A DNA stretch of 51,271 nt from Bordetella parapertussis (GTDB lineage Bacteria > Pseudomonadota > Gammaproteobacteria > Burkholderiales > Burkholderiaceae_B), in NCBI GenBank assembly GCA_945883615.1, contig CAMCYB010000008.1:1-51271 (forward strand), written 5' to 3'. Numbering within the stretch: the first letter of the stretch is position 1; each line of letters starts with the position of its first letter. The notes below the pieces were generated by a model, which made no database searches, was not told the DNA's origin, and was given only the letters and a program-made list of their open reading frames with translations. Positions 30,313 through 32,474 of the stretch are shown piece by piece. A program made the translations under genes and the position numbers.

Positions 30313-31443
30313 ATGGAAATTTCTTCTCTCTTTTTTGGTCGAATTCAGTTTGAACTGACGGTTGCGTTGCTGTACTCTTTTACTGCTTTATCGATCGGTT
30401 TAGCCTTTTTATTGACCGTTGGTTTTACAGCAAAGCGTGCCAATCAGAGTCAACTTAACTCAGAAACTTTTAGGGTTTGGCTGCGTATTTTTGCGCTCGC
30501 CCTTTTTAGTGCATTTGCTTTGGGGTTTTTAACAGTCGTTGAAATGAGTGCGGTCTGGCCCACCCTGATCGAACGTATGGGTAATGTGTTTGGTCCCTTA
30601 ATGTTTTTTGCCGTGGTTATTTTTGTGGTGCTCAAATCAACTGCCTTAGACGTCATGCTGTTTGGCAAGCAGCGTGCCTCAGTTGCTCAATATCGATGGG
30701 CCATGTGGCTAGTCTTGCTTGGGCTGGCCATGGTGGCTTACTTCATCATCGTTTTTGACAGCTGGACGCGTCAACCCGCCGGAACCATGATGATTGATGG
30801 GCGCTATCGTATTTACGAATGGTTTGAGTTATTTGCTCAACCAGGGGCCCTCATACAAAGCCTAGAGTTTTTTCTACAATCGATTTATGCAACCGTTGGT
30901 TTGCTCTTAGGCTTTTCAGCTTGGCAGACCAAGTTCAGACCACTGCGTGACGACCACGTTAAGTTTTTAAAGCGGGCTTTAAAGTGGGGGGGCGTGTCAT
31001 TAATCTTACATGCGGTTTCAATGTGGTTTTTATATACCAACAGTTTGTTGCCTTACAAGCTTGACGTAAATCGTGTCTATTTTTTAATTTGGCTGAGCTA
31101 TTGTGCAGTGTTGTTTCTTTGGTTTTTTATTGCTTATCTGTCACTCAAGAAGTATGTGGGCCAACTGAAACCTCGGTCAGTACTCATCTTTGCGGCACCC
31201 GTTGGCATGATGATACCTGCCTTAGCATGGCTAACAGGCAGTGATTTTAGAAGTGAATTTGCTGTGATGAATGCAGTGAAGGCCGCTGATGTCATCACGT
31301 CAACCCCGTTCACTTGGTTAGCATTTGGTTTGATTTTATTGTTAATCTTTTCTACGCTTATTATCTATGGTTTTGTTCGATTATCTGGTTACGCCATGAC
31401 ACAGGGCGTCGTGCCCGTTGTTAAAACAGGTGCTGCACCGTGA
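30313..31443 (+). CDS. CydA-like membrane protein lacking haem ligands and Q-loop
   Basis: A 376-residue membrane protein with nine predicted helices, related to cytochrome bd oxidase subunit I (usually about 450-520). Homology shows in RIQFELT, GLAFLL, the FG...ST segment near 93-110 and LLGFSAW near 199-204. Aligned gaplessly with E. coli CydA from memory, haem ligand H19 becomes L20, E99 A100, E107 K108, H186 E185 and M393 S262. The Q-loop is absent: only about 10 residues join helices 6 and 7. The protein has just two His (215, 233). It therefore cannot bind haem in the known way. Ribosome site GAAGGG is close to the ATG. Overlaps the cydB-like gene by 4 bp (GTGA). Function unknown. Confidence 0.8.
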   Translation: MEISSLFFGRIQFELTVALLYSFTALSIGLAFLLTVGFTAKRANQSQLNSETFRVWLRIFALALFSAFALGFLTVVEMSAVWPTLIERMGNVFGPLMFFAVVIFVVLKSTALDVMLFGKQRASVAQYRWAMWLVLLGLAMVAYFIIVFDSWTRQPAGTMMIDGRYRIYEWFELFAQPGALIQSLEFFLQSIYATVGLLLGFSAWQTKFRPLRDDHVKFLKRALKWGGVSLILHAVSMWFLYTNSLLPYKLDVNRVYFLIWLSYCAVLFLWFFIAYLSLKKYVGQLKPRSVLIFAAPVGMMIPALAWLTGSDFRSEFAVMNAVKAADVITSTPFTWLAFGLILLLIFSTLIIYGFVRLSGYAMTQGVVPVVKTGAAP

Positions 31444-32474
31444 TTGCATCCTACGCTGCTTCGCTGGGCCTAGTGCCCACAGACCCCGCCTTCTGGATGC
31501 CTTTGACTTTGCTAATGGTCACTTCATTGATGGTGTTGGGTACGATTGTGTTTGATGGTTTCGATATGGGTGTGGGCTTATTGTTACCCTTTGCACCCGT
31601 CTCGTATCGGCAAGCACTCATGACAAGCTTAGCGCCTTGGCGAAGCGTCAATGAAACGTGGGTGTTGCTCACTTTTGCCTTAGCTGTTGCCTCATTTCCC
31701 TTTGCTTTTGGCACCATCTTAAATCAGCTTTATCTGCCTATACTGCTTTGTATGTTGGGTGTGGTGACACGTAGTATTTCATTTGAGTTTCGGGCGCGCT
31801 CAGCAATTACCATGCGATCTTTCTGGCTAGTCGTTTTTTTTATTGGGGCATTGCTCAGTGCATTGGGCTTAGGCTTAATATTGGCCGCCTTTGCAGCGGG
31901 TTATCAGCAAGATGCAACCAACATAGGTTTTATTTTATTTGTCGCGCTTTGTGTCATGGCTGCTTGTATGCTCATGGGTTCATGTTGGCTGCTCATGCGC
32001 TGGGAAGGCGAAGTACATATGCTGGCTGCGCGTTGGGCGAGCCATGCCGTGCGTTGGGTCGCAGCAGGCATGACGGCAGTATCAATTATGTTGGCCATGG
32101 CAAACCCCGCAATTTTGTACAAGTGGACTAATATCAATAATCTGTTACCGGCAGGCTTGCTTTGGTTCGTGATGCTTGTCTGTTTTGTTTGGTTGGAAAT
32201 ATATTTCAAGCGCGTGCGGCAAAATCAAACGCCAGGCAGGCCATGGCTACCTTTTGTTTTGTGTGTCGTGTTACTGACTTTGATGGTGCTAGGAATTCTT
32301 TATAGTTTATTTCCATTTATGGTGTTAGATGAAATAACGCTTTGGGACGCCACACCGTCGGTGCTGTCAATGCGATTAATTTTAGCCGCTCTCATTATCG
32401 TTTTACCGGTGATCGTGTTACGCCATCTGTCAAACTACAAGCTTTTATTTAGCCCAGCGGGTGCGCGTTTGTGA
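31440..32474 (+). CDS. CydB-like membrane protein (bd oxidase subunit II family)
   Basis: A 344-residue membrane protein with about nine helices, start GTG within the previous stop. It keeps CydB hallmarks: VFDGFDMGVGLLLPF (39-51 region), FPFMVLDEITLWDATPS near the C-terminus. The usual W-D-G-N segment after the first loop reads APWRSVNETW, so the conserved Trp-Asp-Gly becomes Arg-Ser-Val. CydB normally binds no catalytic haem in E. coli. Pairing with a haem-less CydA relative suggests a heterodimer with a non-oxidase role. Ends overlapping recQ by 4 bp (GTGA). Confidence 0.85.
   Translation: MIASYAASLGLVPTDPAFWMPLTLLMVTSLMVLGTIVFDGFDMGVGLLLPFAPVSYRQALMTSLAPWRSVNETWVLLTFALAVASFPFAFGTILNQLYLPILLCMLGVVTRSISFEFRARSAITMRSFWLVVFFIGALLSALGLGLILAAFAAGYQQDATNIGFILFVALCVMAACMLMGSCWLLMRWEGEVHMLAARWASHAVRWVAAGMTAVSIMLAMANPAILYKWTNINNLLPAGLLWFVMLVCFVWLEIYFKRVRQNQTPGRPWLPFVLCVVLLTLMVLGILYSLFPFMVLDEITLWDATPSVLSMRLILAALIIVLPVIVLRHLSNYKLLFSPAGARL

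Follow-up and report, generated by a model that had tools for sequence, protein, structure and literature searches.

A CydAB-like gene pair without recognisable haem ligands, probably the most eroded branch of a cytochrome bd paralogue family in Alcaligenaceae

In the stretch of Bordetella parapertussis DNA analysed here (contig CAMCYB010000008.1 of assembly GCA_945883615.1, 51,271 nucleotides, forward strand; hereafter the window), two overlapping genes encode relatives of CydA and CydB, the subunits of cytochrome bd oxidase. We regard this pair as the branch most eroded, among those known, of a CydAB paralogue family that is passed on vertically in Alcaligenaceae, a reading to which sequence comparison leads us to give a probability of about 0.7. 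Judging from the residues at its former cofactor sites, quinol oxidation and O2 reduction by the bd mechanism would be impossible for the window pair, its branch would hold no haem, and the pair, whose family members are annotated as oxidases, probably does something other than O2 respiration. A sequence-only reading of the same DNA had proposed a membrane complex of bd origin that lacks recognisable haem ligands and is maintained by selection in a non-oxidase role; this proposal was upheld and is extended below, the suggested handling of quinone, protons or small molecules being conjectural. The two genes are as follows.

30313..31443, plus strand: CydA-like subunit, 376 amino acids, nine transmembrane helices, canonical haem sites without ligand (open reading frame, Pfam, alignment, and structure model)
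31440..32474, plus strand: CydB-like subunit, 344 amino acids, GTG start (open reading frame, Pfam, alignment, and structure model)

The CydA-like protein matched PF01654 with 110.8 bits (cut-off 26.2), covering profile positions 3–226 of 418 only, and the CydB-like protein matched PF02322 with 168.1 bits (cut-off 35.6) over profile positions 1–300 of 302. The predicted models of both subunits have the bd fold. As had been proposed, the nine-helix plan is kept and the Q-loop is missing: the CydA-like model has nine long helices, and a short turn (about residues 243–249) replaces the Q-loop.

The E. coli CydA and CydB sequences, aligned to the window proteins, served as the reference for residue numbering. 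The codons at the E. coli cofactor and proton-path sites are listed below, where the window clade is the clade containing the window protein and the family is the wider group of divergent proteins around it.

30370..30372, plus strand: L20, at the H19 site by alignment (Phe in 10 other window-clade rows)
30610..30612, plus strand: A100, at the E99 site by alignment
30634..30636, plus strand: K108, at the E107 site by alignment (Lys in 207/207 family rows)
30865..30867, plus strand: E185, at the site of the haem b558 ligand H186 (Glu in 11/11 window-clade rows)
31096..31098, plus strand: S262, at the M393 site by pairwise alignment (alignment-dependent)
31240..31242, plus strand: S310, at the E445 site by alignment
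31641..31649, plus strand: R68-S69-V70 of the CydB-like protein, at the W57-D58-G59 site by alignment (among the rows aligned, D58 lost only in those of the window clade)

In E. coli, Glu99 and Glu107 are required for the haem b595-d centre, and D58 of CydB terminates a water chain carrying protons to haem d (passages of PMC6853902). In the window CydA-like protein, the active-site residues H19, E99, E107, and E445 were L, A, K, and S, respectively, and both b558 ligands were missing, with E185 at H186 and Ser or a gap at M393. The quinol site was incomplete, with K252 retained as K249, E257 replaced by R254, and the Q-loop reduced to the short turn. Four substitutions that had been named earlier (H19 to L20, E99 to A100, E107 to K108, and H186 to E185) were confirmed by alignment with the actual E. 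coli CydA, and the reported change of Trp-Asp-Gly in CydB to Arg-Ser-Val was likewise reproduced. The equivalence of M393 to S262, also claimed earlier, was obtained in the pairwise alignment but is unstable, since two other alignments leave the window clade unaligned at this column; the earlier ligand list, correct as far as it went, lacked E257 to R254 and E445 to S310. Only two His were found in the 376 residues, as had been counted, at positions 215 and 233. No His is invariant in the window clade (H233 occurs in 8/9 rows and is missing from P0009), and the only invariant Met and Cys residues are M1, M89, and M97, and C264, respectively. As a control with the same aligner, 274 genomes were searched class-wide, of which 78 had a match, and the best 20 matches were aligned and classified; these were canonical at all 14 tabulated positions except S108 (Ala, 20/20).

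The residue census comprised 217 CydA rows, namely 9 canonical rows, 1 distant row (P0013, left out), and 207 family rows (202 distinct), the latter consisting of 11 from the window clade and 196 others. E99, E107, H186, and E257 were present in none of the 207 family rows, and K107 was present in all of them. The losses, which had been treated as those of one protein, are therefore mostly common to a large family, and they are accompanied by a gain, CydA Lys-108 and CydB Arg-68 of the window pair being fixed family-wide. M393 was kept in 14 of the 196 family rows outside the window clade. Within the window clade (11 rows), the H19 site was Phe in 10 and Leu in 1, and the E445 site was Ser in 5, Asn in 5, and His in 1. 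When fragments and distant rows were dropped, CydA position 107 was Glu in 26/26 canonical rows and Lys in 189/189 family and 8/8 window-clade rows. CydB position 57 was Trp in 23/23 canonical rows and Arg in 134/134 family and 3/3 window-clade rows; at D58, the canonical and family rows were 100% Asp (95% level), as against Ser in 3/3 window-clade rows. The fixation of new residues across the family makes decay an unlikely explanation. Two proteins may represent intermediates: L087 kept H19, M393, E445, and R448, had K107, and had lost E99 and H186, and P0086 kept only H19.

A careful CydA tree (57 rows) grouped its 41 family rows in a single clade (support 100/100, stem 0.76) nested in canonical short-Q-loop bd, and a quick tree of 93 rows agreed on this placement. 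The family clade adjoined two canonical proteins, L095 and L096, whose genomes also carry a family member. E107K required one change on the tree, and H19 and E445 required four each. The window clade (6 rows, 100/100) had by far the longest stem, 2.52 changes per column, and, as far as the rows show, the shortening to 376 amino acids and the loss of CydB D58 appear to map to this stem. The sequences show that Glu99, Glu107, the b558 ligand His186, and the quinol-site Glu257 were lost at or before the base of the family, together with Met393 in most members, and that Lys at CydA 107 and Arg at CydB 57 became fixed. The window branch also lost H19, E445, the CydB proton-path residue D58, and the long periplasmic loop while purifying selection on both proteins persisted.

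The earlier statement that both genes are intact, overlapping, and selected was borne out: both open reading frames were found, they share four bases (GTGA), and their dN/dS values were well below 1. The value for the cydA-like gene was 0.13 in the comparison of the window with locus L001 and 0.20 in that with L002, and the value for the cydB-like gene was 0.08 against L001 (partial) and 0.06 against L002, where synonymous sites are near saturation (dS 2.9). Among nine CydA-like orthologues with identities down to 57%, 141 positions were invariant. The GC content and third-position GC of the pair resemble those of neighbouring genes (0.44 and 0.47 versus 0.475), and recent import is therefore not suggested.

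The pair differs from known systems in several respects. It shares with the short-Q-loop (CIO-like) cytochrome bd, CydAB/CioAB, the two-gene overlapping operon, folds, Pfam families, and tree nesting, but it has no ligands for haems b558, b595, and d, no Glu257 or CydB D58, hardly any Q-loop, and instead fixed K107 in CydA and R57 in CydB. The CydA-like proteins of Bordetella and Achromobacter, with 444–447 amino acids, belong to the same family by sequence, but they exceed the window protein by about 70 residues, their CydB keeps D58, and they have been studied only as a presumed oxidase. Archaeal CydA' lacks haem ligands and takes the place of CydB beside a CydA that does bind haem; CydAA' was reportedly described by Murali and colleagues in 2021 as an unusual bd relative that can be active. 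It is, by this account, likewise a ligand-free CydA relative in a bd-type complex, whereas the partner in the window is a PF02322 CydB, so that the whole pair is without a haem site. CydAA' oxidases are also mentioned in a passage of PMC12342949, and in passages of Degli Esposti et al. 2015 (PMC5322542) invariant haem ligands are assumed for the types classified. NrfD-like subunits (ActC and PsrC) show 6–13% identity, and the window pair has no iron-sulphur or molybdenum partner genes alongside. A literature search of open-licence PMC (titles, abstracts, and passages) found no paper describing haem-free CydAB outside archaea, including Alcaligenaceae. Relatives stand in databases as oxidase subunits, and cydAB3 of Bordetella, which is probably a member, is treated as an oxidase in the passages of the work on it.

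Three bd-type loci are given for Bordetella bronchiseptica, cydAB1 (with cydX), cioAB, and cydAB3, and the published cydAB3 deletion removes 2373 bp, starting 41 bases ahead of cydA3 and reaching base 994 of cydB3 (passages of PMC11257404). The spacing of the cydA3 and cydB3 starts deduced from these figures is 1338 bases, or 446 codons, which fits the family length and the overlap; the same sum for cioAB gave about 462 codons. By this deduced length and by elimination only, cydAB3 (BB4012-BB4011 in RB50) is probably in the family. A CydB-like family record named Bordetella bronchiseptica, P0173, has 276 amino acids and an RDAN motif, and an internal stretch of its relatives is missing. In the passages of PMC11257404, cydAB3 was studied by deletion as an oxidase and the missing ligands are unmentioned. 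According to the same passages, each single oxidase deletion, cyd3 included, grew like the wild type; a strain with cyd3 only was unobtainable, as were those with cco, cio, ctaD2, or cyo2 only; cyd3 transcripts were low, low transcription being given for the other five loci; and cydB3 was broken in B. pertussis 18323 and in six of 13 further strains of this species. In a 2026 review, cydAB3 continues to be classed as bd-type, and none of these oxidases is described as biochemically characterised (passages of PMC13367067).

As for the role of the pair, the CydA-like and CydB-like proteins would pair as the usual pseudosymmetric heterodimer, with an isoprenoid quinone or lipid in the vacated haem pockets, as in CydB of E. 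coli bd-I, and with Lys and Arg lining what was once the proton and haem cavity between the subunits. Such a complex would have no redox chemistry of its own and would serve as a membrane module, free of cofactors, for quinone binding or regulation. Occupation of the pockets by quinone or lipid is a tentative guess by analogy, made because E. coli bd-I CydB holds quinone where CydA has haems (passages of PMC8951039) and because the next-closest folds, of the NrfD type, are quinone-binding subunits without cofactor (passages of PMC8076601). In searches with the predicted models, NrfD-like chains (ActC and PsrC) ranked next after bd for both subunits; the pair had no match to NrfD in Pfam at E 1, the similarity being at fold level only. 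It is similarly conceivable, though doubtful, that a whole CydAB heterodimer was turned into a cofactor-free module by stepwise stripping of its haem sites and fixation of Lys and Arg, and that this module binds quinone or moves ions in an NrfD-like manner.

Several observations weigh against a haem-free, non-respiratory pair. Outside the window clade, H19 was kept in 65 of 196 family rows (six rows not covered), and the E445 site was Glu in 31/196 and Asp in 40/196 (71 together). Members with H19 and E445 or D445 may, judging from these residues, still bind haem; the ancestor may thus have held the active-site haems, and redox activity may persist in part of the family. Good support for the absence of haem is limited to the window clade and to branches such as Bordetella/Achromobacter. 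K252 of the quinol site was kept in 10/11 window-clade and 109/196 other family rows. The cydA-like gene was the least constrained of the genes compared, with 0.20 against L002 versus 0.03 for recQ, 0.04 for glnS, and 0.02 for ruvB. Canonical bd models would also be expected to resemble NrfD folds, and the neighbourhood offers no gene hinting at a function of the pair. From the cydAB3 work, as far as its passages go, the failure to obtain a cyd3-only strain carries little weight because cco, cio, ctaD2, and cyo2 failed equally, low transcription is also compatible with a silent oxidase, and half of the B. pertussis strains carry a disrupted cydB3, which implies that the pair is dispensable there.

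Among other explanations, an ion or small-anion pathway, with conduction or binding of an anion or a lipid headgroup in the interface cavity that Lys108 and Arg68 line, seems unlikely. It would account for two fixed positive residues at former active-site and proton-path positions (path residues as given in passages of PMC6853902), and NrfD-like folds, the next matches of the predicted structures, have proposed ion pathways; however, D58 of CydB is lost in the window clade and kept elsewhere, no set of path residues is conserved throughout, and the neighbourhood has no transport context. Equally improbable, in our judgement, is an inactive paralogue that regulates the cell's own canonical bd oxidase, or assists its assembly, by pairing with its subunits. 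Inactive enzyme paralogues often turn into regulators, a general precedent for this explanation, and canonical genes do coexist with the divergent pair in close relatives (two ligand-complete cydAB in G001 and one in G002). Yet every canonical CydA comes with a CydB next to it, and by gene content the divergent pair already makes a complete heterodimer, which is not co-located with the canonical genes.

Slightly less probable still is the binding of haem through other residues in a modified redox protein or oxidase. The cousins retaining H19 and E445 or Asp speak for it, as does archaeal CydAA', an unusual bd relative that can reportedly be active, but the window clade has neither the b558 ligands nor an invariant His, and its only invariant Met and Cys residues are those listed above. 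We consider a functionless relic oxidase in slow decay to be the least probable explanation. The long stem of the window clade (2.5), an evolution faster than that of neighbouring genes, the broken cydB3 of B. pertussis (passages of PMC11257404), and the shortened CydB-like record P0173 would fit decay; the open frames, the low dN/dS of both genes, the 141 invariant positions, and the residues newly fixed family-wide stand against it, and the broken cydB of L001 lies at an assembly gap of N. That break was also considered in its own right as a sign of decay and was rejected on this ground.

Database entries, and very probably also the Bordetella literature on cydAB3, count such pairs as terminal oxidases; if the proposed loss of function is correct, respiratory oxidase counts in Alcaligenaceae would be one too high. 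The family would then represent a natural respiratory oxidase scaffold that has lost all haems and is still selected, with intermediates preserved, and it would bear on the origin of membrane enzymes without redox cofactors and on the purpose of CydB-like quinone binding. With its living series, from H19 and E445 retained through D445 to complete loss, the disappearance of haem could be put to a direct test.

A family-level genome search gave some bd match in 239/250 genomes. From this search, 90 places were classified (the 30 highest-scoring and 60 hand-picked from the rest of the list), of which 87 were divergent (87 genomes) and 3 were canonical, their genomes carrying a divergent copy as well. 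The named CydA family members, all from Alcaligenaceae, came from Bordetella, Achromobacter, and Jezberella (J. montanilacus, P0058), and those of CydB from Pusillimonas, Candidimonas, Pollutimonas, Paralcaligenes, and Orrella; the database relatives are labelled cytochrome ubiquinol oxidase subunits. Nine close relatives of the CydA-like protein (56–100% identity) were found by protein search, two of them in genomes titled Alcaligenaceae. The viral contigs searched contained no relative of the pair, and the plasmid search matched 331 records, all below 60% identity and none reaching 80% query coverage. The idea that the divergent CydB is an orphan partner serving a canonical CydA was rejected, since all canonical CydA genes examined are accompanied by a CydB of their own.

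The neighbouring features of the pair are given below.

28446..30281, minus strand: glnS, divergent from the cydA-like gene (Pfam and synteny)
32471..34330, plus strand: recQ (open reading frame and synteny)
L047:10861-13052 and equivalents: EnvZ-like kinase and OmpR-like regulator at the corresponding locus outside the window (synteny)

In the window, minD, minC, and glnS share one strand, and the cydA-like gene, the cydB-like gene, and recQ run divergently, the last two also overlapping by 4 bases. glnS stood beside the pair in 26/26 loci, the window included, and recQ in 25/26, the contig of the remaining locus stopping before recQ; the recQ of L001 was 97.6% identical to that of the window. 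Outside the window clade, the EnvZ-like kinase was found in 23/23 loci and the OmpR-like regulator in 22/23 (the contig ends at the one exception), and neither was present in the window (51 kb), L001, or L002. The kinase was set aside as a functional partner because, where gene order was read, its strand was opposite to that of cydAB. The two genes are possibly Bordetella RisS/RisA, an unconfirmed candidate; risA is BP3554 of the OmpR family (passages of PMC5020355), and the passages of PMC5020355, PMC11019879, and PMC10955343 give no gene neighbours of RisS/RisA. At 14 of the 23 loci outside the window clade (L045, L048, L049, L050, L052, L053-L058, and L140-L142), recQ was separated from the two-component genes by an unassigned gene of about 350–490 amino acids, and the two examples scanned had no Pfam or NCBIfam match. 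The window glnS, read from its first ATG, has 611 amino acids versus frames of 588–592 at several other loci; its true start is probably downstream of this ATG, which would leave a larger space for a divergent promoter.
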